Shown: positions 40,093 through 53,549 of the stretch, in pieces
Layout: every line of letters starts with the position of its first letter
How positions within the stretch are numbered: position 1 is the stretch's first letter
Assembly (NCBI RefSeq): GCF_000963885.1
Contig: NZ_BALE01000021.1
Location: 1 to 64,000, forward strand
Direction of reading: 5' to 3'
DNA from: Tanticharoenia sakaeratensis NBRC 103193
GTDB taxonomy: Bacteria > Pseudomonadota > Alphaproteobacteria > Acetobacterales > Acetobacteraceae
Length of the DNA stretch: 64,000 nt
Position numbers and translations under genes: made by a program
The notes under the pieces: generated by a model
What the model was told of the DNA's origin: nothing
Database searches by the model: none
The model's input: only the letters and a program-made list of their open reading frames with translations

Positions 40093-40917
40093 GTGCCTGC
40101 CTTTGCCGCGAACCTGACAATGAATTATCCGGAACTCGGGTTTATCGATCGCTTCGACGCCGCCGCCCGCGACGGCTTCAAGGGGGTCGAGTTCCTGTTT
40201 CCGTATGCCTTTCCAAAGGAAGACGTCGAAGCGCGTGTCTCCGGAAATGATCTGCATGTCGCTCTGTTCAACGCGCCGCCGGGTGACTGGGAAAGTGGAG
40301 AACGCGGCCTGGCTGCGCAACCCGGCCGGGAGGACGAATTCCGTCAGTCTATTGATACGGCTCTGGAATACAGCGCGGTTTTGAAAAACCGTCTTCTGCA
40401 TGTCATGGCGGGTCTGCGGCTTCCCGAAACAGCGCTTCAGCACCAGATGGACATATATGTGCGCAACATCGAGTATGCTGCGGCGCAGGCACGGTCGGCC
40501 AATATCACTATCGTGCTCGAGGCGATCAACACACGTGACATGCCTAACTACTTCCTGAACTTCCAGGAGGATGCCAAGTCGGTCTGCGACCTGGTCAACG
40601 CCGACAATGTTCGCATCCAGTTCGATCTTTACCATGCCCAAATCATGCAGGGCGATCTGTCAATCAGGATCGAAACTCTTTTCGACTGGATTGCCCATAT
40701 ACAGGCTGCAAGCATCCCGCACCGGAACGAGCCCGATAGCGGAGAAGTCAATTTCCCGTATTTATTCGATCTGCTCGACAGGCTCGGTTATCGCGGGTGG
40801 ATCGGGTGTGAATATCGGCCGCGCGCATCAACATCGGAAGGGCTCGGCTGGCTCAAGCCATGGCGGGGGCGCAGCGCTCTTCAGCTTGATGCCCATCCAG
40901 GTGATCAGGCAAATTAA
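40093..40917 (+). CDS. otnI: 2-oxo-tetronate isomerase (hydroxypyruvate isomerase family)
   Basis: 274 aa from a GTG at 40093, which follows GGAG by 9 nt and gives the family-typical start PAFAANLTMNYPELGFIDRF. Metal and catalytic residues are visible in IVLEAINTRDMPNYFL (Glu), IQFDLYHAQIMQGDL (Asp, His) and WIGCEYRPR (Glu). OtnI converts 2-oxo-tetronate to 3-oxo-tetronate, the substrate of OtnK. Its C-terminal tail (about 25 residues after GLGWLKP) is not typical and may be a local extension. Last gene of the operon, followed by a hairpin. Confidence 0.88.
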   Translation: MPAFAANLTMNYPELGFIDRFDAAARDGFKGVEFLFPYAFPKEDVEARVSGNDLHVALFNAPPGDWESGERGLAAQPGREDEFRQSIDTALEYSAVLKNRLLHVMAGLRLPETALQHQMDIYVRNIEYAAAQARSANITIVLEAINTRDMPNYFLNFQEDAKSVCDLVNADNVRIQFDLYHAQIMQGDLSIRIETLFDWIAHIQAASIPHRNEPDSGEVNFPYLFDLLDRLGYRGWIGCEYRPRASTSEGLGWLKPWRGRSALQLDAHPGDQAN

Positions 40918-40928
40918 TGCGTTAGTCA

Positions 40929-40947
40929 GACGCGCCGGCAGCGCGTC
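40929..40947. terminator. Hairpin between convergent genes
   Basis: GACGCGC (40929-40935) and GCGCGTC (40941-40947) form a perfect 7-bp GC-rich stem with a 5-nt loop in the 65-bp gap between otnI and the convergent aldolase gene. It probably acts for both, though no clear U-tract follows. Confidence 0.45.
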
Positions 40948-40982
40948 GTTGTCCTGCAGCAGATACGGACGAGGAATCTCAG

Positions 40983-41921
40983 CTAAGAGAGTTCGGTAGC
41001 GCTCGAGGTTTCTTCCTCCTGTCGGAGAAGGCTTTTGGCAAGTTCCTCAACTTTTTGGGCATTCGCACCAGCGAGGCTTGCAAAGAAAGGGCCCATGAAG
41101 CCCGTATCGGCAATGCCAGCCAGGCGTACACCGTCATGAAGGACGGGAATTGGAGATATTTCCGCGCGCAGTGCTTCGAACGGCCCAAAAAGCACAGACA
41201 AACGTCGTGCCTCCTCCAGGTTGCCGCTCCGGATGGCTGCATGGAGTTGCGTGGACAGTCGTGGTGCGATTACTCCGGAGCCGGAGGTATAGTTCCTGAG
41301 GCCATATTCAGCGGTGGAAACGATGCTTTTCTCTCCGGCACCGTCGATGACACGGTCCGCGTTGCTTAACTCGTCCACAAGCCGTGCAAGGTAGGGATGC
41401 TTCCCATCGGCATTGGCCGATATCCCATATTCGATTGTACACAGCACGCCGTCCCTGATAAGGGAAACGGCGTCACTGACAGAAAGATATGACGGGTCCT
41501 TGAAAAAGACCATCAGAGGCTTTCCGAGTCTGTCCGTCAGGCGACGAAGCCCGCTTGCCACGCCGCTTCCGTTGACCGGCGCGAAGGGCAGAAGGATTGC
41601 CGTCGGAAAATTCCGGCTTCGCAGGACCTCCACCTGATCCCATGCCTTGCCGAAATCGGCGCCGATCGACGGTATGATCCACTCGTCCGGTTGGGCCATG
41701 TCCTCGATCAGATCGAGCAATGCTCCATAGCTGCTGAGCGGCTCGTTGAAGAGATTGGCGACACCACCATACATGAACGTCCTGATGCCGCCGTTTCGCA
41801 GCCACGCATTCAGACGCCGGTTTTCCTCTACATCGAACGATCCGTTTTCATGTCGCGCGACCGGCGGAAGTGCCATGATGGCAGCGTTGATATCCAGTGT
41901 GCTGATCTCGCCGGTTTTCAT
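40983..41921 (-). CDS. DapA/N-acetylneuraminate-lyase family aldolase
   Basis: 312 aa TIM-barrel lyase. The Schiff-base Lys is in MVFFKDPSYLS (about residue 147), the glycine-rich substrate loop in FMYGGVANLFNEPLSSY (around 53-69), and the C-terminal part carries the dimer helices typical of the family. Family members cleave or form C-C bonds of 2-oxo acids such as KDG, N-acetylneuraminate or dihydrodipicolinate; the usual GG-T-GE motif is here GG-V-AN, so substrate binding differs. It is divergent from the creatininase gene across a 182-bp gap with a strong palindrome, so the two are probably co-regulated. Substrate unknown. Confidence 0.75.
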   Translation of the reverse strand: MKTGEISTLDINAAIMALPPVARHENGSFDVEENRRLNAWLRNGGIRTFMYGGVANLFNEPLSSYGALLDLIEDMAQPDEWIIPSIGADFGKAWDQVEVLRSRNFPTAILLPFAPVNGSGVASGLRRLTDRLGKPLMVFFKDPSYLSVSDAVSLIRDGVLCTIEYGISANADGKHPYLARLVDELSNADRVIDGAGEKSIVSTAEYGLRNYTSGSGVIAPRLSTQLHAAIRSGNLEEARRLSVLFGPFEALRAEISPIPVLHDGVRLAGIADTGFMGPFFASLAGANAQKVEELAKSLLRQEEETSSATELS

Positions 41922-41998
41922 CGCGTCTTCGAGGCTCCATGCAGATCTGTTGCTGTCGGCATCCGGCCATTGAGCGCGCCATCAGCATGCCTGGCAAA

Positions 41999-42033
41999 CA
42001 TCAATTTGAGGCCAGAACGACATCAAATTGATG
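41999..42033. promoter_or_regulatory. Double palindromic operator between divergent genes
   Basis: CATCAATTTGA (41999-42009) and TCAAATTGATG (42023-42033) form a perfect 11-bp inverted repeat. Each arm also contains a smaller palindrome: CATCAA-A-TTGATG at 42021-42033 is perfect and CATCAA-T-TTGAGG at 41999-42011 has one mismatch; their centres are 22 bp apart, two helical turns. It looks like two adjacent sites for a dimeric repressor or activator controlling both the DapA-like and creatininase genes. Confidence 0.6.
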
Positions 42034-42103
42034 CTTTGATACACGTTTCGGTCCGCTATCGTGGTCGCAATCCCAGTGCCACCCTTCCTGAGGGAATGCC
42101 AAG

Positions 42104-42958
42104 ATGTCTCTTCCGCCTGCCGATGACGTTCTCTTCGAGGTCCGTGGCCCGAAATCGTGGGAGTGCATGACTTCGGCGGAGCTGGCCGGGCAGCTTGCCG
42201 AGACAGATTGTGCCATCGTGCCGGTCGGCGCGGTGGAACAGCATGCCGGACACCTGCCGCTAGGGCAGGACAATTTCCAGATCAGCGAGATCGTTCGCCG
42301 GAGCGTCATTCAGCTTGCCGGCGAAAACCGGAATGTCATTTTCGGTCCGACAATTCCGTTCGGGCCGCTGGCCAATGTCCGGTTCCCGGGCTGCATCCAT
42401 ATCCGGCCCTCGACTCTGGCACTCCTGACGAAGGAAGTCTGCCTGAACCTTCATCGGGACGGCGTGAACACCATCGTACTTGCCATGGGGCATGATCTTT
42501 CGCTGGGCGCGCTGATGGTCGCGGCGCGCGAACTGGCAGAGGAAACCGAAGACAGGCTGCGTGTCATCGTCGCGAACTGGCTTCCCTACGTCGTGTCGCT
42601 GCTGCCTAAGACATTTCCGGGATTGCCGCCCGGTGGGCGGGACGGTCATGGCGGCGCGGGCGAGACTGCACGCATGTTGGCCCAGCATCCCAAACTCGTC
42701 CGATCCGATCTCGCGCGCGACTATCATGTCGCGGCAACGCGATCGGAAACACCGTTCGCCCATCCCGTGACGGCCGGCGGCGGCGTCTATGCACCACGTG
42801 CGACGACGATCCGCGATCAGGAATTTCAGGGCATTCTCGGCTGTCCTTCTCTCGGAACTGCGGAAATCGGCGAGGTTCTCTATGAGTCTCTCAGCCATTG
42901 GCTCAGCGATGTCGTGCGCGAATATTGCTTTGGTGCCTCGGAATCCTACAATTACTGA
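42104..42958 (+). CDS. Creatininase-family amidohydrolase
   Basis: 284 aa. The family signature PVGAVEQHAGHLPLGQD (about residues 43-59) carries the metal-ligand Glu, His and Asp; further ligands are expected in MGHDLSLG and GHGGAGETARML. Members hydrolyse cyclic or linear amides (creatinine, formamidopyrimidines, dehydro-inosose) or act in mycofactocin maturation, so the substrate is open. The usual NGHGGN segment is MGHDLS here, unusual for creatininase itself. AGGGA precedes the ATG. It heads an operon with an SsuA-type binding protein, a RarA-C-like protein, an ATPase and a fused permease, suggesting hydrolysis of an imported amide. Confidence 0.82.
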   Translation: MSLPPADDVLFEVRGPKSWECMTSAELAGQLAETDCAIVPVGAVEQHAGHLPLGQDNFQISEIVRRSVIQLAGENRNVIFGPTIPFGPLANVRFPGCIHIRPSTLALLTKEVCLNLHRDGVNTIVLAMGHDLSLGALMVAARELAEETEDRLRVIVANWLPYVVSLLPKTFPGLPPGGRDGHGGAGETARMLAQHPKLVRSDLARDYHVAATRSETPFAHPVTAGGGVYAPRATTIRDQEFQGILGCPSLGTAEIGEVLYESLSHWLSDVVREYCFGASESYNY

Positions 42959-42977
42959 GAGCGGAGAAAATCGCGCC

Positions 42978-43979
42978 ATGAACCGCCGCGGCTTCATCTC
43001 ATCCTGTATGGCGGGATCGCTTGTTGGCGGCAGACGCGCCTTTTCCGATACCCCTCTGCGGACCTGTGCGTATCAGCTCAGCTGGATCAAGAACTTCCAG
43101 GGGGCAGGCGAATATATCGCGTCGGAAAAAGGGTTCTTTCGGGACGAAGGACTGGATGTGACGCTCCTTGCAGGCGGACCGACCATGCCGCACGAGCCGG
43201 CCGTCATGTCCGGCAAGGCGCTGCTGGCCCAGACAATGCCCGATAATACCGTCATGGCGAACATGCACGGCGCGACGCTGAAAATCATCGGTGCAGGATA
43301 CCAGAAAAGCCCATTCTGCATCGCGTCCCTGCTTTCCGGTCATCCAATGCACACGCCTCAGGACATGGTCGGCCGTAAAATCGGCGTTCAGAGCGTCAAT
43401 CTTGTTGTCTGGAGGACGTTCCTCCGCCTCAACCATATCGACCCGGCCTCTATCACGGTGGTGCCGGTCCAGTTCGACATGGCGCCCCTCATCGCCGGCG
43501 ATGTCGATGGTTTTTTTGGCTATCTGAATGACAATGTCGTCCATCTCGAGGCCGCGGGGCATCGAACGGCGGTCGTACCCTTCGCGCAGTTCGGATACAC
43601 GTTGATGGGCGCGACGCTCGCGGTCCGGGCAGACAGTCTTCAGGACCCGGTCCGGCGCGCCACGCTGGTGTCGTTCATGCGCGCGGACATGCGCGGGTGG
43701 CAGGCCGCGATAGCCGATCCGGCCCTGGGCGCAGACCTCACGGTGAACGATTTCGGAAAAGGCAACGGTCTGGACCCAAAGGCCGAGGAACAGTCCTGCC
43801 GCGCAAGCAACGCGCTGATGGTCGACGCGGATACGAACAGCAAAGGCCTGTTCTGGATGAGCGATGCCGCTGTGGCCGATGCGATACGCATTCTGCGCCT
43901 TGGAGGCCTGTCCGCCAGCCCGGACCTGTTTACCAATGAAATCCTCGTGGAGGCGCGGGCAGGCGCCGGGACACATTGA
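42978..43979 (+). CDS. NMT1/SsuA-type ABC substrate-binding protein
   Basis: 333 aa from ATG 42978, preceded by GCGGAGA. The N-terminus NRRGFISSCMAGSLVGG is a Tat-type signal. The mature protein has the ThiY/NMT1 pattern SWIKNFQGAGEYIASEKGFF and LLAGGPTMPHEP. It is a paralogue of the binding protein at 51709-52770 (shared AGE, GGP and domain order). Ligands of this family include thiamine precursors, sulfonates, riboflavin and nitrogen heterocycles. It lies 19 bp after the creatininase gene and feeds the ATPase/permease encoded downstream. Confidence 0.85.
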   Translation: MNRRGFISSCMAGSLVGGRRAFSDTPLRTCAYQLSWIKNFQGAGEYIASEKGFFRDEGLDVTLLAGGPTMPHEPAVMSGKALLAQTMPDNTVMANMHGATLKIIGAGYQKSPFCIASLLSGHPMHTPQDMVGRKIGVQSVNLVVWRTFLRLNHIDPASITVVPVQFDMAPLIAGDVDGFFGYLNDNVVHLEAAGHRTAVVPFAQFGYTLMGATLAVRADSLQDPVRRATLVSFMRADMRGWQAAIADPALGADLTVNDFGKGNGLDPKAEEQSCRASNALMVDADTNSKGLFWMSDAAVADAIRILRLGGLSASPDLFTNEILVEARAGAGTH

Positions 43980-44000
43980 ACTTCCGAAGAGGGACGCCCC

Positions 44001-44588
44001 ATGGCCGAAAACTACCAAAGTCAGGATCTCTGGAGCCGCACGACGACCAGAAAAGGCTATGCGGCCGACGAACTGCGTTCGGTCCTTCAGAAATCGATCC
44101 GCCGCGGAATGCTGGAGGAAGCCATTCTCGCGGGCTGTGAACTGTTCTTCAGCAGCCCGGAAACCGAAGAGATGCTCTGGCGCCGTCTCGAAATCATCAC
44201 GACGGAAGACGTCGGTCTCGGGCTTCCGAACGGCCCGGCGGTGATCGAGGCCCTCTACCGGCAGGCGAAGCGGATGGTCGATCCGGGCGATCGCTGGATG
44301 TACGGGGCTCATGCCATCCGGCTGCTGGCAACCGCCCCGAAGGACCGGCTCAGCATGGAACTCGCCTGCTGGGCACGCGAAAGTCTCGATCGGGGCGAGC
44401 GCCGCATCGAGATCGAAGACTATCATCTCGACATGCACACACGGCGCGGCGTCGAACGGGGCAACGGGCCGGAACACTGGTGGCGCAACGGCGCGCGACT
44501 GGACAACCAGATCAACGACACGCCGACCAAATACGACGCGTATCTTCGGAAACTGTATGCCGGGAGTGACGATGGAGAGAAAAGCTGA
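44001..44588 (+). CDS. Orphan protein resembling the C-terminal domain of RarA/MgsA
   Basis: 195 aa with no Walker motifs. By recall it lines up along its length with the C-terminal half of the AAA+ protein RarA (MgsA): LRRLEIITTEDVG-like segment (about residues 64-74), AHAIRLLATAPKDR (about 101-114) and DYHLDMHTRRG (about 140-150) correspond to RarA's IASEDVG, AIVYLACAPKS and DVPVHLRN. The AAA+ half is absent. RarA is a replication-fork ATPase whose C-domain tetramerises. Here the domain stands alone inside an ABC importer operon, between binding-protein and ATPase genes. Cytoplasmic; function unknown. Confidence 0.65.
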   Translation: MAENYQSQDLWSRTTTRKGYAADELRSVLQKSIRRGMLEEAILAGCELFFSSPETEEMLWRRLEIITTEDVGLGLPNGPAVIEALYRQAKRMVDPGDRWMYGAHAIRLLATAPKDRLSMELACWARESLDRGERRIEIEDYHLDMHTRRGVERGNGPEHWWRNGARLDNQINDTPTKYDAYLRKLYAGSDDGEKS

Positions 44589-44608
44589 ACGCGGAGCAGC
44601 GGCACTCT

Positions 44609-45403
44609 TTGGGCGCCGCGATCGCCGTTCGCGGCGTGACACGGACATTCACGCTCGGCGCACGTTCGGTCGTGGCACTCGAAGCGGTGAACCTCGAGAT
44701 CCCGGCGGGAACGCTGGTCTCTCTCCTCGGGCCGTCCGGCTGCGGCAAATCGACGCTGCTGCGGCTTTTCGCGGGGCTGGACAAACCTGATGGCGGCTCC
44801 ATCCTGATCGACGGGGGCGATCCGAATGAACTGCGCGCCAGTCATCGGATCGGCGTCGCATTCCAGGATTCGTCGCTTCTGCCCTGGCGCTCGGTCTGGT
44901 CCAATATCTGTCTGCCTCTTGAACTGGCAGGGCGGACGGCTGAACGGGCGGACATTCAGGGCCTGATCGACATGGTAGGCCTGTCCGGCTTCGAAAACGC
45001 ACTGCCGGCACAGCTGTCGGGCGGAATGCGCCAGCGCGTGGCAATCGCCCGCGCACTGGTCGCGACCCCGTCCGTCCTTCTGCTGGATGAGCCGTTCGGC
45101 GCGCTCGATGAAGTCGTGCGGCTGCATCTGCACCTTGAACTGCAGCGCATTCGCGCGGCACGCCCTGTCACGACGCTGCTGGTGACACATACTGTTTCTG
45201 AGGCCGTGTTCCTGTCGGATCAGGTAGTGGTCATGGCATCCCGCCCGGGGCGGGCCGTTCGGACGATCGCTGTCGATCTGCCCTATCCGCGCACGCCTGC
45301 CACGCTCCGCAGCGCGCGTTTCCACGAACTTTGCGATCTCTGCAGCGAAGTCCTGTTTTCACATGCCTCCGGCATGGCCGCATCAACTGGAGTGCAGGAG
45401 TGA
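44609..45403 (+). CDS. SsuB/TauB-type ABC importer ATPase
   Basis: 264 aa from a TTG at 44609 (GGAG 12 nt upstream); no ATG in frame fits better. Walker A GPSGCGKST (about residues 40-48), Q-loop AFQDSSLLPWRSV, signature LSGGMRQRVAIARAL and Walker B VLLLDEPFGALD. It drives the fused permease encoded next; its stop overlaps that GTG start. The operon (hydrolase, binding protein, RarA-C-like, ATPase, permease) is tightly spaced. Confidence 0.87.
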   Translation: MGAAIAVRGVTRTFTLGARSVVALEAVNLEIPAGTLVSLLGPSGCGKSTLLRLFAGLDKPDGGSILIDGGDPNELRASHRIGVAFQDSSLLPWRSVWSNICLPLELAGRTAERADIQGLIDMVGLSGFENALPAQLSGGMRQRVAIARALVATPSVLLLDEPFGALDEVVRLHLHLELQRIRAARPVTTLLVTHTVSEAVFLSDQVVVMASRPGRAVRTIAVDLPYPRTPATLRSARFHELCDLCSEVLFSHASGMAASTGVQE

Positions 45404-46989
45404 GCAGCCTCCGGCAAGGCGGCCGTGCGGAGCTGCTATGGGCCGTCAATTTCGTGGCGATCCTGCTCTTGTGGCAATGTGTCGGCTTCGCCACGGGGCT
45501 GCCGGGGCCGATCGCCGTCGTGCATCGTCTCAAGGTCGACGGGCCGGAACTATACTGGAATGCCGGGCTTTCCACGTTGCGATGTGCATTGCCGGGGTGG
45601 GTCGGCGCCTCCGCAGTGGCGGCTGTATGCGCCATGGTGGCCACGGTTTGGCCGGTCCTGGCGCCCGGGATCTTTCAGCTCGGCGTCATGTCCTACTGTC
45701 TGCCGTCGCTCGCCATCGGGCCCGTTCTGATGATCGTGCTCGATGGAGACGGGCCGCGCATCGTGCTTGCGGCACTTGCGTCGTTCTTCACGATGCTCGT
45801 GGGCACGATGACCGGGCTGCGCGCATGTCCGCCGTTCCAGACGATGCTGGTCACGGCATTCGGCGGAACGTCATGGCAGGCCCTCTTCAAGGTCCGCCTG
45901 CGCGCCGCGGTCCCGTCATGGTTCGCGGCCCTGCGGATCTCGGCGCCCGCTTCCCTGCTGGGGGCGATGATCGGAGAATTCCTGGGTGCGGAACATGGTC
46001 TCGGCGTGCTGCTGATCAATGCCCAGCAAAGCCTCGATCTGTCGCGGACCCTGACCGTGACCCTGACGTCGGCGGCCTTTGCAGGCGTGCTGTATGGCGT
46101 TGTCGGGATCGCAGGCCATATGTGCACGCGCTGGGCCCGCGACATGCCGCTGAATCTGGCGCGGGAGAGCGAAGCCTTGCGCGTCGGTTGGGCGAACACT
46201 GCCCAGCGCACAGAGGCGGCGCTGCTTGCCGCCGGCCGTGTGATCGCGGCAGTGATGGTTGCACTCGGCGCATGGTGGCTGGCTCTGCGTCTCTCAGGCG
46301 TGACGCCTTACGTCGGGCGGTCGCCGCTCGACGTGCTGCACTATCTCACAGACCGTACCGACGGAGCGGCCCGCATCGGCGAGATTGTCCGCGAGCTGGG
46401 CACGACGCTGCTGGACATGGCAGCGGGCCTGACCGGCGGGATCGGGGCAGGGCTCGGCCTCGCCGTGCTCTCCCAGATCTGGCCTCCGCTTCACCGGCTG
46501 CTCGCGGGGCCTGTGTTCATCATGCAGGCCATGCCGCTCGTGGCGACGACACCGCTCCTCATCCTGCTGTTCGGGCGAGGCGAAGCCATCGTCGTCATCG
46601 TAGGAGCTATCGTCACGTTCTTTCCGATTTTCGTCAGCGTGTCCCAGTCCTTTGCGTTGACGCCTCGCTCGGCGCTCGATCTGATCGCGGCCAACGGCGG
46701 CGGCCGCCTGGCCGCGCTGCGCAAGGTTCAGGTGCCGGCGGCCCTGCCGTCCCTGTTTGCAGCCTTGCGAATCACGGTGCCTCTATCAATGACGGGCGCG
46801 CTGATCGCCGAATGGCTCGCAACCGGGCGAGGCACGGGCTACATGCTGCTCAATGCCGTGTCGATGTCGGATTATGACGGACTATGGGCGCGTGTTGCCG
46901 TGACGACTACCGTTTCGATGGTTCTTTACGGGCTGATCGGCTGGATCGAACTCGCCGTTGGCCGCGCGTTGACGGCCGGCCGCGCCTGA
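45400..46989 (+). CDS. Fused double permease of an SsuC-type ABC importer
   Basis: 529 aa from GTG 45400 overlapping the ATPase stop. Two BPD_transp_1 domains in one chain: the first EAA loop is near residues 150-175 (GGTSWQALFKVRLRAAVPSW), the second near 425-450 (NGGGRLAALRKVQVPAALPS), each followed by a G-x4-EW/EF-L segment. About 12 membrane helices in total. SsuC permeases are normally single-domain homodimers, so the fusion gives a fixed heterodimer with a single ATPase partner. The last 108 bases are antisense to the end of the convergent LysR gene. Confidence 0.88.
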   Translation: MSSLRQGGRAELLWAVNFVAILLLWQCVGFATGLPGPIAVVHRLKVDGPELYWNAGLSTLRCALPGWVGASAVAAVCAMVATVWPVLAPGIFQLGVMSYCLPSLAIGPVLMIVLDGDGPRIVLAALASFFTMLVGTMTGLRACPPFQTMLVTAFGGTSWQALFKVRLRAAVPSWFAALRISAPASLLGAMIGEFLGAEHGLGVLLINAQQSLDLSRTLTVTLTSAAFAGVLYGVVGIAGHMCTRWARDMPLNLARESEALRVGWANTAQRTEAALLAAGRVIAAVMVALGAWWLALRLSGVTPYVGRSPLDVLHYLTDRTDGAARIGEIVRELGTTLLDMAAGLTGGIGAGLGLAVLSQIWPPLHRLLAGPVFIMQAMPLVATTPLLILLFGRGEAIVVIVGAIVTFFPIFVSVSQSFALTPRSALDLIAANGGGRLAALRKVQVPAALPSLFAALRITVPLSMTGALIAEWLATGRGTGYMLLNAVSMSDYDGLWARVAVTTTVSMVLYGLIGWIELAVGRALTAGRA

Positions 46990-48000
46990 CGATCTTTTTC
47001 GCGCGCGTCCACTTCTGCGGTTCGCGACCGGCAGAAGCGCGTCATCGAGCACATTGAGCCCATGTTCGAGAAAATTCTGACAAGCGGCTGGAAGAGTGGC
47101 ATCCGTCACGACACAGCATCCCATCAGGCTGTATCGCGCCAAGGGTTCCTCGATCGGTACGTAAGATAATGTCAAACTGCGTGGAGACAGCTTCTCCGGT
47201 AGCGGCGTCTGGAGCGATACGAGATCGCTTCGGGTTGCGAAATCCCGCATGAGCTGAAAGGAATTCGTCGTGAGGAACGGCAGGCATCCGGGCGGCTCCC
47301 GCATGGCAAGCCTTTTCTGAAAAGCGCTCAGATAGGCTGCGTCATCCGGCAGCGCCAGCGGGTATGCCCCGCATTCGCGAAGGGTTACGGACTCCCGGGA
47401 GGCCAACGGGTGGTCATGACGCATCACGGCACACGTCTCGAGTGCATATTCCCGCAGCACCTGAATATTCATGTCCGCAGGCACATCATAGACGAACACG
47501 ATGTCGAGACGGCCATCGTCGAGAAGCGCCAGTAGTTCGGGTGCACGCCCGGTCCTGACGGTGAAACGCACATGGGGCTCATGCGCCGTGAAAGACAGGA
47601 TCAGATGTGGAAGCAATTCCCGCGCCAGCGCGTCGTGAGCACCGATCCGGACATGTCCAAGTGGAAGGCGACGCAGGTCGGCCAGCTCTTCCCCCGTCAC
47701 GGCGATTTCGTCGAGGATCCGCGTAACCCTGCGCAAAAGCGTTTCGCCGGCATCGGTCAGCTTCAGGGCCCGACGCCCGCGTTCGAACAGGGGCAGCCCG
47801 ATGGCGGCCTCCAGCTGCCGCACATGACGGTTGACCGCGGACGGCGCGATATTCAGTTCCTCGCCCGCGGAACGAAACGAGCCGGTGCGGGCGACAGCAT
47901 TGAAATAGCGCAATGCCGGCAGGTTCTGCAGCACCCGCGTCAGACCTGACGGCAGCAGATCGGATCTCCCCCGGGTATTGCTAGGTGCTTTGCCGCGCAC
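46882..48000 (-). CDS. LysR-family regulator at the end of the amidohydrolase operon
   Basis: 372 aa from GTG 48000, overlapping the preceding permease gene by 20 bases. A GcvA-like winged HTH lies about residues 24-70 (LPALRYFNAVARTGSFRSAG, IAPSAVNRHVRQLE), then a LysR effector domain. Unlike typical LysR (about 300 aa) it has a 25-residue N-terminal lead and a C-terminal basic tail of some 55 residues (from RRSGRARKRSSGAAG on) which is read from DNA antisense to the convergent permease. As the last gene in the operon it may regulate its own upstream genes. A later internal start would remove the N-terminal lead. Confidence 0.8.
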   Translation of the reverse strand: MRGKAPSNTRGRSDLLPSGLTRVLQNLPALRYFNAVARTGSFRSAGEELNIAPSAVNRHVRQLEAAIGLPLFERGRRALKLTDAGETLLRRVTRILDEIAVTGEELADLRRLPLGHVRIGAHDALARELLPHLILSFTAHEPHVRFTVRTGRAPELLALLDDGRLDIVFVYDVPADMNIQVLREYALETCAVMRHDHPLASRESVTLRECGAYPLALPDDAAYLSAFQKRLAMREPPGCLPFLTTNSFQLMRDFATRSDLVSLQTPLPEKLSPRSLTLSYVPIEEPLARYSLMGCCVVTDATLPAACQNFLEHGLNVLDDALLPVANRRSGRARKRSSGAAGRQRAANGEFDPADQPVKNHRNGSRHGNTRP

Positions 48001-48745
48001 GGAAACACTCCTCCAGATATCCCAGGGCCTGATAGACGGTGACGGAAAAACCGGTTGCAAGAAAACTCGCGGCAATGGCCCGCGCCATTGCAAGGTCGTT
48101 GCGCGCGGCCGCGAACGCGTAACCCAAGCCCCCCGTATTCGTGAGATATTCGCTGACCAACGCAGTCATGAGCGCGGTCGCGGCGGCAACACGGAGCCCG
48201 GCTGCCCAGTCGGCCAGCGCGGACGGGATCGCCAGTTCACGGAGGCGGCGCAGACGGCCTGCACCCAGAACCTGCATGAGGTCATTGCTGCCGGGCGGCA
48301 CGGCCATGAAGCCTGCACTCGTGAATACATAGATCGGAAAGAAACTGCCGAGTGCCACGATCGACAGAGAAGCTCCCGTGCCGTAGCCGAACAGACGGAC
48401 CGCAACCGGAATGAGTGCCACGATCGGAACCGAGTTGAAGATCAGACCGAACGGCGTGAGCATGGCGCCGAGGAGGCCGGAATACCATCCGGCCACGGCA
48501 GCGCCCGTGCCACAGGCTGCCCCGATGGCCAGACCGCCCCCGGCCAGCCACAGCGTCTCGACACTTCTCTTCCAGTAAAACGCCGGATGATCCACCACCT
48601 CCTGCAAAACGGCGGCAGGATGCGGCAACACGATCGCATTGACGTCCGTGATCACGACATAGGCCTGCCACAGCCCGATGATCGCAAGTAACGGCAGAAT
48701 AGTGGCACTTCCGCCGCGCAGCGCGGCCAGCAGTCGTTTCCTCAT
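47981..48745 (-). CDS. SsuC-type ABC permease
   Basis: 254 aa from ATG 48745, which overlaps the stop of the other permease (ATGA). About six membrane helices; EAA loop around residues 160-180 (GAGRLRRLRELAIPSALADW). This is one of two separate single-domain permeases in this module, contrasting with the fused protein in the facing module. The C-terminus overlaps the start of the LysR gene. Confidence 0.85.
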   Translation of the reverse strand: MRKRLLAALRGGSATILPLLAIIGLWQAYVVITDVNAIVLPHPAAVLQEVVDHPAFYWKRSVETLWLAGGGLAIGAACGTGAAVAGWYSGLLGAMLTPFGLIFNSVPIVALIPVAVRLFGYGTGASLSIVALGSFFPIYVFTSAGFMAVPPGSNDLMQVLGAGRLRRLRELAIPSALADWAAGLRVAAATALMTALVSEYLTNTGGLGYAFAAARNDLAMARAIAASFLATGFSVTVYQALGYLEECFRARQST

Positions 48746-49491
48746 CGATAACGCTCCGAAATTCCCCGCAGGACGAGCGTCCATCCCCCGTAAAGCGTCA
48801 GTGAAACTGCAACCGACAACGTAACCGCGCTCCACAGAAGCGTAATCTGCGCATTCTGCATGGCATTGATCACCAGGACACCTATCCCGCGCGGCAGGCC
48901 GAACCATTCACCCACAAGCGTGCTCAACAATGCCGCCGGCACGGCGACGCGCAGTCCGTTGACCAGCGCGGGCAGGGCTGCCGGAAGATCGACGGATACC
49001 AGCCGGCGGATCCGCCCACTTCCCATGACGCTCATCAGATCGCCCCAGGCCCGTGGTGCCGTCCCGAAAGCCTTGCACAGGGAAACGTGGATGACGAAAA
49101 ACGTGCTGTTGGCCGCGAGAGCCACGGGCGTCGCCTCGCGGCCAAAGGTCAGAATCAGGATCGGGGCCGTAGCCACGGACGGAAGGGCATAGAGAAAGGC
49201 CGCCATACGATCGAACGGGCGATGCAGTCGCGGCAGAAACAGGACGAGGACGGCGCTTCCGATTCCGAGTGCTGCGCCGAGCCCGTAGCCCGGCAGCATC
49301 GACGACAGCGTGGCGGCCATCGCGCGCCCGAAAAGAGACCGATGGTTCACTGAAGCCAGCATGGCAAGAATTGCCGAAGGTGCGGGCAGGCTCCGGGCAT
49401 CTGCCCCGTACTCGGCCGCGATTTGCCACAGCGTGACGATTACCGCGAAGCCAAGCACCCTTGGCATGGCACGCCGGACGGGGCCCGTCAC
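48742..49491 (-). CDS. SsuC-type ABC permease
   Basis: 249 aa from GTG 49491 within a GTGA overlap with the ATPase stop. Six or so membrane helices and an EAA loop MGSGRIRRLVSVDLPAALPA near residues 155-174. It resembles the other permease and the halves of the fused permease, so the four domains descend from one duplication series. It forms the channel with the 47981-48745 product. Confidence 0.85.
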   Translation of the reverse strand: MTGPVRRAMPRVLGFAVIVTLWQIAAEYGADARSLPAPSAILAMLASVNHRSLFGRAMAATLSSMLPGYGLGAALGIGSAVLVLFLPRLHRPFDRMAAFLYALPSVATAPILILTFGREATPVALAANSTFFVIHVSLCKAFGTAPRAWGDLMSVMGSGRIRRLVSVDLPAALPALVNGLRVAVPAALLSTLVGEWFGLPRGIGVLVINAMQNAQITLLWSAVTLSVAVSLTLYGGWTLVLRGISERYR

Positions 49492-50321
49492 GCGCCGGCC
49501 GTCCTGCTCGCGCCGGTCGATGGTACATCGACACCATGATGGGCCTGGGCCAGCATTTCGGTCAGATCGTCGACGAGGTGATGAAAGTCATGGCTGCGCA
49601 GCAGGGGCGGCGTGCGCGGTCGCGAAAACGGGACCGTCAGGTCATGGATGATACGGCCTGGCCGACCGCTCATGACGACAACGCGATCGGCGAGGAACAG
49701 CGCCTCGGGCACGTCATGCGTCACGAGCAGAGTCGTCGTGCGCTGCCTCAGCCAGATGTCCTGAAGCTCGATGTTCATCTGCTGGCGGGTGATGAAGTCG
49801 AGCGCGCCGAAAGGTTCGTCGAGAAGGAGCACGTCAGGGCGCAGCACGAGTGCGCGGGCGATGGCCGCGCGCTGTCGCATGCCGCCCGACAGCTGCCGCG
49901 GTCTGGCATGTTCGAAGCCCTTCAGCCCGACCAATGCCAGCAGTTCGGAAATCCGGTGATGATCGACGGCGCGTCCGGCAACACGATAGGGTAGGGCGAC
50001 GTTCGCCGCGATCGTGGCCCAGGGAAGCAGGGCATGATCCTGAAAGGCAACGCCGAGGCGATGTGCGCGGGCCAGCGTGGCCGGCGTGTCCTGTCCGATC
50101 GAGACCGTGCCCTCGTCCGGCGTTTCGAGGCCGGCCACGAGCCGGAGCACCGTGCTCTTGCCGCAACCGGAAGGCCCGAGTATCGCAACGAAAGCACCGG
50201 CAGCCATGTCGAGGGAAAACGCATCGAGGGCCGTGGTCTGCGCGCCGCGCCGGAGCCGGAAACGACGGGTAACGCGGTCCAGCCGGAGCGGCGGCGACGC
50301 GACAGCGGATGCGTCGGTCAC
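49488..50321 (-). CDS. SsuB/TauB-type ABC importer ATPase
   Basis: 277 aa from GTG 50321, in a GTGA overlap with the amidohydrolase stop. Walker A GPSGCGKST (about residues 49-57), Q-loop AFQDHALLPWATI, signature LSGGMRQRAAIARAL and Walker B VLLLDEPFGALD are intact. It energises the two permeases that follow and resembles the ATPase of the facing module. Confidence 0.87.
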   Translation of the reverse strand: MTDASAVASPPLRLDRVTRRFRLRRGAQTTALDAFSLDMAAGAFVAILGPSGCGKSTVLRLVAGLETPDEGTVSIGQDTPATLARAHRLGVAFQDHALLPWATIAANVALPYRVAGRAVDHHRISELLALVGLKGFEHARPRQLSGGMRQRAAIARALVLRPDVLLLDEPFGALDFITRQQMNIELQDIWLRQRTTTLLVTHDVPEALFLADRVVVMSGRPGRIIHDLTVPFSRPRTPPLLRSHDFHHLVDDLTEMLAQAHHGVDVPSTGASRTAGA

Positions 50322-51706
50322 GAGGCTGCGATCAGATCATGAAAGCGCTTCATGATCTGCGGGCGGCGGTCGGCCAGACGCTTGCGGATATCCTCGAGGT
50401 CGATGGTCAGGAGACGTCGGTCCTGCAGCACGAGTTCGCCCTCGATGATCACGTCGCGCACGTCCCGGCCCACGATGCAGCTTGCCGCGAGGAACAAGGC
50501 GTCATCGGTCCCCATCTGGTCGGCATCGGTCCGATCGACCAGAACCAGATCGGCCCGACATCCGGCTTCGAGGCGCCCCAGCGTGTCGCCCATGCCGACG
50601 GCACGCGCCCCGCCCCGTGTGGCCACGCGCAGCAGATCCTCGGCACCCATCGGCACGCGCTGGTGGTACGGATGCCCGATGGACGCGGCCTGTCCGATCC
50701 GGGCCGCATGGGCGACCTGAAACAGGTCCATCGATGCGGCCGAGGCGGCACCGTCTGTGCCCAGGCCGATCGCCACGCCACGGCGCCACATTTCCTGCAG
50801 GCGTGGAATGCCGATGCCGTAATTGCCCTGAGCGCAGTGGCAGGCTGACAGGTTGTGCTCAACGTAGAGGTCGACTTCCTCGGGCGAGAGAATTACCGAG
50901 TGGGCACAATGCAGATGTGGCCCAAGTGCTCCGAGATGTCGGAGATATTCCGTCGGCCGCACGCCGTGATGTTCGAGCGCGTAGTCGACTTCGTATGTGC
51001 CTTCCGCCAGATGGGTATGGACCCGTGTCCGGTGCGCGCGCGCCTCATCAGCGATCCTGCCGATCAGTTCGGGCGTGCACACGATGATCTGCCGAAGGGA
51101 CATCCATGCCTTCACCCTGGGATGATCCCGCCAGCGTTCCACCAGCGCCACATTGCGGGCGACGGCCTCGTCCGTATCCATGACCATTGTGCCGGGCACG
51201 CAGCGGCCGGCAAAGGACGTGTCGCGATCGACGGTTGAGAGCGAAACGAATCCGCGGATGCCGGTGTCAACCGCGGCGCGGGCCATCTCGTCCGGATGCG
51301 GACCGCCTGCTTCGGCAAAGCACGTAGTCCCGCACAGGATCATGTTGGCATAAGCCACAAGGCCGCTGAGATAGACGTCCTCCGGTTCGAGAAGACTTTC
51401 AAACGGAACGTAGTAGTTCTTCCACGGCGGGTTGCGCAGCGGCCCGATCCGGCTCAGCTCGGACAGCGTTCCGCGAAGAAGCTGCTGTGCCGTATGCACA
51501 TGGGCATCGATGAGACCCGGTAGAATGATCTTGCCGCGTCCGTCCACGCGCCGGGTGGCCGGATGCATTGTCGCGTCTTCGGCGGTGCCGATCCAGGCAA
51601 TCCGATTGCCGCTGATGCCGACTGCGCCATCCCGAATGACCCGGCCGGCATCGTCCATCGTCACGATGTCGCCACCCGTCACCAGAAGATCGAACATTTC
51701 TGCCAT
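50318..51706 (-). CDS. COG0402 amidohydrolase, cytosine/guanine-deaminase-like
   Basis: 462 aa of the TRZ/ATZ-type subgroup. Metal ligands are visible in DAHVHTAQ (about residues 67-74), THLAEGTYEVD, HCAHSVILS and the Asp in LGTDGAAS. Relatives deaminate guanine, 8-oxoguanine, S-adenosylhomocysteine or cytosine, or hydrolyse s-triazines; I cannot say which applies. It lies between a binding protein and the ATPase of one ABC importer, with GTGA overlaps, so its substrate is probably the imported compound, likely a nitrogen heterocycle. Confidence 0.85.
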   Translation of the reverse strand: MAEMFDLLVTGGDIVTMDDAGRVIRDGAVGISGNRIAWIGTAEDATMHPATRRVDGRGKIILPGLIDAHVHTAQQLLRGTLSELSRIGPLRNPPWKNYYVPFESLLEPEDVYLSGLVAYANMILCGTTCFAEAGGPHPDEMARAAVDTGIRGFVSLSTVDRDTSFAGRCVPGTMVMDTDEAVARNVALVERWRDHPRVKAWMSLRQIIVCTPELIGRIADEARAHRTRVHTHLAEGTYEVDYALEHHGVRPTEYLRHLGALGPHLHCAHSVILSPEEVDLYVEHNLSACHCAQGNYGIGIPRLQEMWRRGVAIGLGTDGAASAASMDLFQVAHAARIGQAASIGHPYHQRVPMGAEDLLRVATRGGARAVGMGDTLGRLEAGCRADLVLVDRTDADQMGTDDALFLAASCIVGRDVRDVIIEGELVLQDRRLLTIDLEDIRKRLADRRPQIMKRFHDLIAAS

Positions 51707-51708
51707 GA

Positions 51709-52770
51709 TCAGAGATACTCCCGTGGCAGCCCGGCGGCGGCCTCATAAACGATCGAGAAATCGGCAAGTCGGTCAACCGGAGGAAGGGCCTTGTGGCCTG
51801 CAGCGCGCGCGCCTGCATACATCGGCCCTTCCATCAGTGCCCGGTCAAGCGCCAGCCGCGGGCGACCCGGGTGGTCGGGATAGCGCGTGAGTGGAATCTG
51901 CATGAGATTCTGGCCGAGCTGCTGGGCCGGGTCGAGGCCGAGATCGGCACCGTATCGTTCCACAGCCAGACGCGGCGCGAGCGTCGGTTGGCGTGCGTTC
52001 AGGGCCCAGCCGGTCATGAGACCGCGCAGGTATGCGATCAGATCCTGGCGCCTGTGGACGAGCATCTCCCGGGTGGTCGCCAGCAGCGCGGCGTAGCTAC
52101 GGAAACCGATATCGTCGAACGCCGAGAAGAAGAAATCCCGGTTCTTGACCAGGCCCTGCCGTTCGAGGATGAGAGTCTGGTTCGTATCGAAGCCGATATA
52201 GGCATCACCATCGCCGTCCAGCAGAGGCTGGGGCGAAAACCCGGCCGCAAGCTGCGTCCAGCGTTGAGGCAGGCCTGCCATCGCGAGGGTGGCATTGACG
52301 GCGATCGCCTCGGGCGGCCCGGGTGTCAGGATGCGCGCATCGAGAAGATCCGATGCCCGGGTGACGGGATGTCGCGCAAGCGAAATGATGCCGAGCGCAT
52401 TGCGTGGAAACACAGCGGCTATGAGCATCTGATCATTGCCGCGCGCCACGGCTTCGAGAAACGGCAGCCAGCTGACATACCCCAGTTCCGCCTCGCCCGC
52501 GGCCAGCATGATCGACGTGGCAAGCGCGTTCGGCCCCCCTGGGAACCATTCGACCAAAACGCCCTGCCGTTCGAAAAGGTGCTGATCGAACGCGACCCAT
52601 TCGCCTGCATACTCCACATTCGGCACCCAGCCGAACTGAAGGCGGAGCCTATGAAGTCGGCCTTGGCTCCTTGGTTTGCATCCTGCAAGCGACGCTGCTG
52701 CAAGTCCAGTCAGGGTGGTGCGCCGGTCTATGACCGGAGTGATCATGCTGGAACGTGAGCGGCGCAACAT
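51709..52770 (-). CDS. NMT1/SsuA-type ABC substrate-binding lipoprotein
   Basis: 353 aa as drawn; ATG 52746 (345 aa) would place the signal IDRRTTLTGLAAASLAGC at the very N-terminus and may be the true start. That signal combines a Tat-like double Arg with a lipobox (LAGC, cleavage before Cys near residue 31). The mature protein has the ThiY-like FGWVPNVEYAGEWVAFDQ and WFPGGPNALA segments, matching the facing module's binding protein. First gene of the operon. The C-terminal region (YAGARAAGHKALPPVDRLAD) is short. Confidence 0.83.
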   Translation of the reverse strand: MLRRSRSSMITPVIDRRTTLTGLAAASLAGCKPRSQGRLHRLRLQFGWVPNVEYAGEWVAFDQHLFERQGVLVEWFPGGPNALATSIMLAAGEAELGYVSWLPFLEAVARGNDQMLIAAVFPRNALGIISLARHPVTRASDLLDARILTPGPPEAIAVNATLAMAGLPQRWTQLAAGFSPQPLLDGDGDAYIGFDTNQTLILERQGLVKNRDFFFSAFDDIGFRSYAALLATTREMLVHRRQDLIAYLRGLMTGWALNARQPTLAPRLAVERYGADLGLDPAQQLGQNLMQIPLTRYPDHPGRPRLALDRALMEGPMYAGARAAGHKALPPVDRLADFSIVYEAAAGLPREYL

Positions 52771-53549
52771 CTGCTCAATATCATTGCATTATTCCGGCCT
52801 TGCAAGCAGATCGTTCCGGGAAGAGAAACTTTGATGTGTCATGCCGGAGAGCATCGTCGCGTTCACGGCCATATGGGTCTGACAAAAGGCCTTTTCCCGA
52901 TTGCGTCTTCGTATCGGGGGCAATGATAGCGACAGCTGACACCGCATGCCGTCGAGGCGCTCGCCGGAACCCGAGCAGACACCTTTTCCGAAATCCTCTC
53001 AGATGACAGCAGACAAAAGGATGACGCTGTCTTTTCCTTTTATTCCTGATAATATGTCGGAAGTCATCGCGTCGTTGGAGGCCATGCATGTCATATCGGC
53101 CGAACGACACGAGTCGGCATGTTGCAATGGTGCGGCTCTGGCGGAAAGCCTGTTCGAGACTCTTGCCGACACGTTATGAAAGTCTGAGCGAAGTCCCGCG
53201 CTGACAGCTCAGGCCGGCGCTTCATCTCGATATGAACCGTCCTGCAGTACCTGCCTGTTCGAGCTGAAATCGAAGGCGCCCTTACGCGTTTGCACCCGCG
53301 TGGCTTCTCATGTGGCCGGAGGCCTCCATGCCCTTCATATCCGCAAGGCTGGTGCCCCTTGTCCTGAGGGTCGCCTGTCTTGTCTAGGCCTGTGCCAATT
53401 CAATCTTCCACCGGTGACAAAAGTAACCCGTTAGTCCGGCGCAGGATCGTCCCGGGAGCGCTTTTGTCAGGCCGGAAGTATTCGCGGCCAACGATCTCTG
53501 CAATGCCATGCTGCGGTCGGGAGCGTTGAATTTTGGAGACTGACCGGCC
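52771..53549. other. Gene-poor stretch before the lipoprotein gene
   Basis: Contains the promoter region of the amidohydrolase/importer operon near 52771-52850. A plus-strand frame at 52946-53179 and minus-strand stretches at about 53240-53320 and 53400-53540 have protein-like composition (for example EIVGREYFRPDKSAPGTILR) but no start or family I can name; they may be decayed genes. Confidence 0.35.

Follow-up and report, generated by a model that had tools for sequence, protein, structure and literature searches.

Why does a gene whose product resembles only the C-terminal part of RarA/MgsA lie within an ABC importer operon? An initial annotation, made by eye from the letters of the sequence, had described a stand-alone RarA C-terminal domain encoded between a binding-protein gene and its ATPase gene, and had suggested that the product might be a scaffold touching the transporter ATPase or a sensor of uptake. 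Here we examine this claim with profile and structure comparisons, searches for relatives and a survey of gene neighborhoods. We call the whole 64,000-nucleotide stretch of DNA that was analyzed the window, and the 195-residue product of the gene P0001.

A conserved gene in an apparent importer operon

The gene order is creatininase-family amidohydrolase, substrate-binding protein (SBP), P0001, ATPase and permease, all on the plus strand, followed downstream by a LysR-family regulator on the opposite strand (Table 1). P0001 starts 21 nt after the SBP stop codon and is followed 20–38 nt later by the ATPase gene, depending on the ATPase start chosen, so that the placement between these two genes is as first described. 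A pattern scan of 41900–47200 found 2 terminator-like sites against 3.3 expected by chance, none of them convincing as a terminator within the operon, and from the intergenic spacing we infer that the genes are co-transcribed. The creatininase-family protein matched NCBIfam equivalog models only far under their cut-offs.

Orthologues of P0001 with 88–89% identity and the same gene arrangement are present in Komagataeibacter oboediens and K. intermedius, and these closest matches suggest Komagataeibacter or a near relative as the source of the window. Comparison of the window with K. oboediens gave a dN of 0.074, a dS of 0.89 and a dN/dS of 0.084 for P0001, against dN/dS values of 0.084 for the SBP, 0.075 for the creatininase-family gene, 0.108 for the ATPase and 0.187 for the permease. 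Because the gene is kept in two Komagataeibacter species and has this low dN/dS, it is not a chance open reading frame, and by these codon comparisons it is under purifying selection.

Table 1. Features of the P0001 gene and its surroundings in the window.
Feature	Position	Strand	Basis or remark
Creatininase-family amidohydrolase, apparent same operon	42104..42958	+	Pfam PF02633, E=3.6e-44
NMT1/THI5-type ABC substrate-binding protein (SBP)	42978..43979	+	Pfam PF09084, E=2e-38
Stand-alone RarA/MgsA C-terminal-domain protein, 195 aa (P0001)	44001..44588	+	ORF, Pfam, fold and profile
RarA-superposing region of P0001, residues 12-135	44034..44405	+	VIA-align to 2r9g
Motif QKSIRRG, residues 30-36	44088..44108	+	K31, R34, R35, G36 same in 53/53
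Motif WRRLxxIxxEDVG, residues 60-74	44178..44222	+	E69 53/53, R62 52/53, D70 51/53; RRL and ED common to RarA
K114 (50/53) and R116 (52/53)	44340..44348	+	53-row alignment
Motif DMHTRRG, residues 144-150	44430..44450	+	D144, H146, G150 53/53; T147 50/53
ABC transporter ATPase; starts at 44609 or at about 44627	44609..45403	+	Pfam PF00005, E=8.3e-35
ABC permease, double-length, start codon uncertain	45331..46989	+	Pfam PF00528, two stretches
LysR-family regulator, facing operon	46882..48093	-	Pfam PF00126 and PF03466

P0001 is a RarA/MgsA C-terminal domain homologue that stands alone

As a single sequence P0001 matches the Pfam family MgsA_C (PF12002) with E=1.9e-4 and 21.8 bits. As this score lies under the curated cut-off of 27 bits, we call P0001 a divergent MgsA_C homologue and not a curated PF12002 member. 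It also matches PHROG 33349 ('ATPase') with E=1.5e-6, and three AAA-family (PRK13341) models of NCBIfam far under cut-off. Against PDB sequences, the single sequence matches RarA C-terminal chains weakly (E 0.07–0.23), and its best match is an unrelated phage-like stopper protein (E=0.015 over 48 residues). A profile built from 53 stand-alone homologues gave matches to 2r9g (E=5.1e-16), 8g28 (4e-14), 3ctd (4e-13), 3bge (1e-12), 3pvs (E. coli MgsA, 5.6e-12) and 2qw6 (1.4e-11), and the next match after these RarA entries was no better than 0.25. Likewise, hhalign of the stand-alone family against four RarA C-terminal domains returned a probability of 99.4 and E=5.4e-21, and at E≤0.01 PF12002 recognizes 42 of the 53 proteins of the family (lowest E 2.8e-13).

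The structure predicted for P0001 from a 45-row alignment (mean pLDDT 90.9, pTM 0.79) has the fold of the RarA C-terminal domain. It superposes on 2r9g with Z 17.2 and an rmsd of 2.1 over 121 residues and on 3pvs with Z 16.2 over 116 residues, RarA C-terminal entries overall giving Z 14.3–17.2, and Foldseek at E≤0.001 returned 18 matches, every one a RarA/MgsA entry. The helical bundle also resembles the collar domains of clamp loaders (T4 gp44, RFC, DnaX), but these rank after RarA, with Z 6.9–9.6 and 4–15% identity, values that may reflect a mere common helical arrangement. The K-S-x-R, RRL, ED and K motifs are found in both P0001 and the RarA/MgsA_C proteins. The sequence match extends to about residue 155, beyond the end of the superposed fold, and the tail diverges after about residue 135–155. 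Collectively, the sequence profiles and the predicted fold show that the product of 44001–44588 is homologous to the RarA/MgsA C-terminal domain and stands alone, bearing out the assignment made by eye; neither of the outcomes named beforehand as refuting it, a lack of profile relation or a different predicted fold, was obtained.

Judged by sequence, P0001 is neither RarA nor a transporter subunit. The AAA+ half is absent, since the domain begins at about residue 12 of the 195 and Pfam finds no AAA-domain match; a separate RarA of 478 aa, counted from its ATG, is encoded elsewhere in the genome. Pfam gives MgsA_C only and NCBIfam the AAA-family models only, with no sequence similarity to transporter components and no known DNA-binding domain in either collection. 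According to a paper on RarA (PMC8735627), the protein is said to act as a tetramer and its molecular function is described as still unknown. The linkage of the P0001 gene to importer genes, a further difference from RarA, points elsewhere than to a role at gaps or stalled forks. Our literature search, which covered mostly open-access titles and the openings of abstracts, returned no paper on stand-alone MgsA_C proteins.

Most stand-alone relatives are viral

Relatives of P0001 are encoded at 78 IMG/VR loci. Among the 62 that we read, 54 encode short proteins of 177–250 aa and 8 encode longer ones; the remaining 16 looked like near-duplicates. For our alignment we took 41 of the 62 proteins, leaving out the 8 long ones and 13 others by choice. 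Seven of the eight longer proteins were scanned and none has an AAA domain. The 41 short proteins match MgsA_C alone, save at most one weak match to the PARG helical domain, which was recorded for 1 of the 53 family members (E=0.0029). In INPHARED, 61 records match at E≤0.01, namely 53 from Microbacterium phages, 5 from Arthrobacter phages and 3 without a name; this number includes the faecal record L018, which is probably bacterial, and a full RarA (L021). Among the 40 INPHARED rows listed the annotation is mostly 'AAA-ATPase' or 'ATPase'. Such labels, given in many phage records, and the 'hypothetical protein' of plasmid records are corrected by the present assignment.

The phage proteins (PHROG 33349) are like P0001 in standing alone and in keeping the same conserved residues, including D-x-H-T. 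P0001 itself has the features of this phage-type family, being stand-alone and carrying E69, D144, H146 and G150 as well as K31, R34, R35 and G36, the last four partly fixed by our search patterns. Its best viral fold match is an Arthrobacter phage protein (E=8e-9), and among the other viral matches are giant-virus proteins named DUF4326 (E=4e-4) and putative glycosyltransferase (E=5e-3).

The neighbors of the phage copies differ from those of P0001. In the best 25 of 54 Pfam families found, we counted TET-associated glycosyltransferase 8 times, two terminase families 6 and 5 times, N6-methylase 5, ParB_N 5, RadC 4, epimerase 3 and Mom 2; among PHROGs, terminase large subunit (9) came ahead of glucosyltransferase (8). 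These counts, which have no background of random phage genes, come from 121 crudely called ORFs in a selection of 38 loci, to which L048 contributed none. With this scope, the glycosyltransferase, ParB, methylase and Mom neighbors suggest DNA modification, partly with sugars, as the setting of the phage copies. One phage copy sits among RecB-like, HNH and deaminase genes.

The importer-linked proteins form one clade

In a 57-row tree, nine intact proteins encoded near importer genes form one clade with UFBoot/SH-aLRT support of 99/97 and no other row inside. They come from Komagataeibacter, another alphaproteobacterial family, Enterococcus, Cetobacterium, Subdoligranulum and a faecal contig. 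The nearest rows, a Bradyrhizobium plasmid copy and one IMG/VR copy, join this transport clade at 89/92, which is under firm support. The remaining stand-alone family is viral, with no resolved order at its base, and the RarA C-terminal domains are separate at 100/100. A tenth copy, in genome G378 (L101), has an in-frame stop and was excluded from all alignments and from the tree. The simplest reading of this topology is a single recruitment from the phage-type stand-alone lineage with subsequent horizontal transfer between phyla.

Transport-type copies are sparsely distributed. A tblastn search of PLSDB matched 21 of 72,556 records, some of them RarA. Stand-alone homologues with 38–41% identity occur in 12 Enterococcus records, 2 of Cetobacterium and 1 of Subdoligranulum, four of these 15 records being inspected, and a homologue with 35% identity occurs on a Bradyrhizobium plasmid (2 records, one inspected). 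Another homologue lies in L018 (MT838878.1, 'Bacteriophage sp.', 4.8 kb, cut at both ends), a record that resembles bacterial DNA, the homologue being flanked by sugar-ABC genes and an AraC-type regulator. Of 394 genomes from the other alphaproteobacterial family, only G378 and G819 (L111) carry a match at E≤1e-20; an overlapping draw from the same family, like the first centered on G378, gave 6 of 248 at 1e-10, these two of transport type and four of a long type described below. A draw across the phylum matched 2 of 398 genomes, the window's own and G378, and a draw across the class matched 4 of 385, the window's and three with 363–391-aa open frames of another type. Among 60 related genomes no transport-type copy was found except the window's own; the 7 other matches are open frames of 413–548 aa, which is RarA-sized, and two of them (L008, L009) read as full RarA. 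Genus-level searches covered one genome each. IMG/VR scans queried with the L018, L014 and L111 proteins returned no relatives. The true number of transport-type copies is probably higher, because the genome contigs were scanned by exact peptide patterns, which miss distant copies.

Two observations were made during these searches. Open frames of the long type span 363–391 aa (418 in G811), resemble MgsA_C in their N-terminal part (L102, L103, L108 and L112:5373-6470 on the minus strand), and occur in genomes G614, G688, G719, G784, G950, G975 and G811. On the Bradyrhizobium plasmid the copy is near a TIR protein matching PADLOC ThsB models (L016:6091-8543); PADLOC gave no defence match for P0001 or for the L013, L016, L023 and L111 proteins themselves.

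Uptake is the common feature of the transport-clade loci

We compared ten loci, those of the nine intact clade members and that of G378. An importer gene directly adjoins the homologue in 9 of the 10, and in the tenth the importer begins about 2.9 kb downstream, so that the recurrence in importer operons is supported, within a small sample that has no background of random genes adjoining importers and is not made of independent cases (three loci are of Komagataeibacter type and three have one shared PTS arrangement). The window and two further loci, L011 and L012, whose genes were named by likeness to the window, have creatininase, NMT1 SBP, homologue, ATPase and permease genes; L011 (K. oboediens) additionally has GntR and TenA-family genes. 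In L111 the order is NMT1 SBP, ATPase, permease (the first identified by eye), permease, homologue and nucleoside 2-deoxyribosyltransferase. In L101 it is cytidine deaminase, creatininase, GATase1-like, homologue with an in-frame TGA, adenine-deaminase-like, NMT1 SBP, ATPase and permease. L015 has a sugar-type SBP, two permeases and the homologue, with no ATPase seen among the listed genes, while L018 has the end of an ATPase gene, two permeases, a sugar-type SBP, the homologue and an AraC-type regulator; in both loci only the SBPs were tested with Pfam and the other genes were labeled by eye. Finally, L013, L014 and L017 share a divergent RpiR/SIS regulator, the homologue and a lactose/cellobiose-family PTS EIIC.

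These importers fall into non-homologous classes, the NMT1-type ABC systems, those with a sugar-type SBP and two permeases, and the lactose/cellobiose-family EIIC, and the gene directly adjacent to the homologue varies among SBP, permease, EIIC and GATase1-like. Because the importer classes are unrelated, the common feature of the loci is uptake and not one transporter part. A known fold, here free-standing, recurs in a new setting, the importer operon, and this linkage spans three phyla (Alphaproteobacteria, Bacillota and Fusobacteriota), whereas the phage copies are often near DNA-modification genes.

Homologous NMT1-type importers also occur without the gene. We inspected 6 of 21 plasmid records with a homologous SBP, all from Rhodobacterales and with one shared arrangement, and in 6 of 6 the SBP and ATPase genes are adjacent with no P0001-like gene between them; these SBPs are only 37–41% identical to that of the window, so their substrate may differ. 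A search of 59 other Acetobacteraceae genomes for the window SBP gave no match at E≤1e-40.

The neighbors offer hints about the solute. Base and nucleoside enzymes lie near the alphaproteobacterial copies, namely the nucleoside 2-deoxyribosyltransferase of L111, the cytidine deaminase, creatininase and adenine-deaminase-like gene of L101, and the TenA-family gene of L011. These neighbors suggest a nucleobase- or nucleoside-like compound in the alphaproteobacteria, where alone this theme is clear. In Bacillota and Fusobacteriota, where just sugar-type importers were seen, the solute can be called 'sugar-type' at most. A possible thiamine link is raised by the NMT1/THI5-type SBP and the K. oboediens TenA gene; searches for a TPP riboswitch found none at the Rfam gathering score in the window or nine loci, nor one at E≤1 in 40900–53500.

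In the window and nine loci a single RNA reached the gathering score, a purine riboswitch (68.1 bits; L014:7089-7186, minus strand) on the Cetobacterium somerae plasmid. By its position it precedes an aminohydrolase gene that lies two genes from the MgsA_C-like gene, near the RpiR, MgsA_C-like and EIIC genes. In L101 the adenine-deaminase-like gene beside the TGA-bearing homologue also appears fragmented (L101:9431-12000), from decay or sequencing error.

Conserved polar residues

Apart from the two Komagataeibacter orthologues, the 53 stand-alone proteins are 25–46% identical to P0001, and K31, R34, R35, G36, E69, D144, H146 and G150 never change among them (Table 1). The constancy of residues 29–36 is partly built in, because LQK[SA]IRRG was among the patterns that fetched 41 of the 53 rows (the 41 IMG/VR rows were fetched by this pattern or another around residue 57). 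The 12 rows found without patterns keep K31, R34, R35 and G36 too, and the constancy of E69, D144, H146 and G150 is free of search-pattern bias. Q30, E47, R62, D70, K114, R116 and T147 change in ≤3 of 53 rows. Seven positions, D9, W11, D23, S52, E57, D97 and G132, are fixed in the transport clade only and variable elsewhere.

Counterparts of K31, R34, R62, E69, D70 and K114 exist in RarA, and these six may serve the fold. None of the four RarA rows compared has R35 or R116. H146 is present in one of the four only (L021), while a D-x-H stands at the corresponding place of E. faecium RarA (2r9g). Proteins of the transport clade are acidic, with pI values of 5.1–6.2, whereas the other 44 rows have a median of 7.6 and an overlapping range of 5.2–9.3.

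Proposed function and alternatives

The unrelated importers and the six Rhodobacterales operons without the gene make the solute, rather than the transporter, the likelier common denominator. Since, in addition, every gene of the apparent operon except the homologue looks like a transporter or regulator gene in L013, L014, L015, L017 and L018, we propose that P0001 is a soluble protein that handles the solute. The conserved polar residues, the acidic pI and the nearby base and nucleoside enzymes likewise suggest a cytosolic enzyme or ligand-binding protein. Our preferred reading, held tentatively and at somewhat short of even chances, is that P0001 is a soluble cytosolic protein that would bind or chemically process the imported solute, which may be a nucleobase- or nucleoside-like compound or another glycoside. 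The residues proposed to act, on grounds of conservation, are K31, R34, R35, E47, R62, E69, D70, K114, R116, D144, H146 and T147. P0001 would then be neither a piece of the transporter nor a DNA-repair factor, and would have been recruited once from the phage-type lineage before moving between phyla.

The initial annotation's scaffold is the first alternative to weigh. According to it, a tetramer of P0001 would gate or assemble the importer, for instance through the ATPase. The tight spacing of the gene between SBP and ATPase, the direct adjacency of importer genes in nearly all loci and the tetrameric state attributed to RarA (PMC8735627) are consistent with such a role, but the clade is linked to importers of unrelated classes, those of PTS type have no ABC ATPase, one ABC operon shows no ATPase among its listed genes, the adjacent gene varies, and all six homologous Rhodobacterales operons do without the protein. 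A scaffold on the ABC ATPase was dropped as the leading idea on account of these homologous importers lacking the gene and of clade members that pair with EIIC; we consider a regulator or scaffold of the transporter unlikely.

Uptake sensing, the other role first suggested, is a less likely possibility. After taking up the solute as a ligand, P0001 would go on to bind DNA, RNA or a regulator and so act on gene expression. Regulator genes do lie near several copies (LysR in the window, RpiR/SIS at the PTS loci and, by eye, AraC-type in L015 and L018), yet these same loci thereby already have dedicated regulators, and P0001 has an acidic pI and none of the known DNA-binding domains. We give this reading little weight.

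We are equally doubtful, if not slightly more so, that the free domain joins host RarA in mixed tetramers as an inhibitor or adaptor, perhaps a phage trick that was later tied to the uptake of nucleoside-like DNA-damaging compounds. Such a role would fit the RarA C-terminal fold, the host's own RarA and the phage family of free copies. Against it, R35 and R116 are missing from 4 of 4 RarA rows and H146 from 3 of 4, the neighbors of the transport clade are importer and not repair genes, and glycosyltransferase, ParB and methylase genes are frequent beside the phage copies, although one of these copies lies among RecB-like, HNH and deaminase genes and RadC neighbors occur in four cases. That P0001 is a non-functional relic of RarA or of a phage gene caught in the operon is very improbable, for although the G378 copy has an in-frame stop, the dN/dS of the window gene is like that of its neighbors and 39 columns are invariant among eight clade members from three phyla and the faecal contig.

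A wider and more speculative idea may be raised, which we rate as distinctly less probable than its contrary. The RarA C-terminal domain may at root be a module that binds base- or sugar-containing molecules or acts on them catalytically. Once freed from the AAA+ motor, it would serve DNA modification in phages, and bacteria would have recruited it for nucleoside or glycoside uptake pathways as a new enzyme or an obligate ligand-handling protein. RarA's own C-terminal domain might then carry an overlooked ligand site. As a free-living version of that domain, P0001 offers a simple soluble protein for direct tests of its ligand or activity.

Other features around the operon

A 549-aa antisense open frame (42999-44648, minus strand) spans the SBP and P0001 genes. 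It is apparently a shadow frame of a G+C-rich genome, since the frames listed antisense to the K. oboediens SBP are no longer than 186 aa. Directly behind the first importer set lies a second NMT1-type ABC set (47981-52770, minus strand; two permeases, ATPase and SBP, the SBP and one permease identified by eye), which contains a TRZ/ATZ-type aminohydrolase gene at 50318-51706. A similar aminohydrolase is the one found two genes from the Cetobacterium copy, and an amidohydrolase lies four genes from the G378 copy. On the other side of the operon, 40986-41921 on the minus strand encodes a protein of 312 aa that matches nothing in Pfam or NCBIfam and relatives of which, at about 42% identity, are found on Sinorhizobium plasmids.
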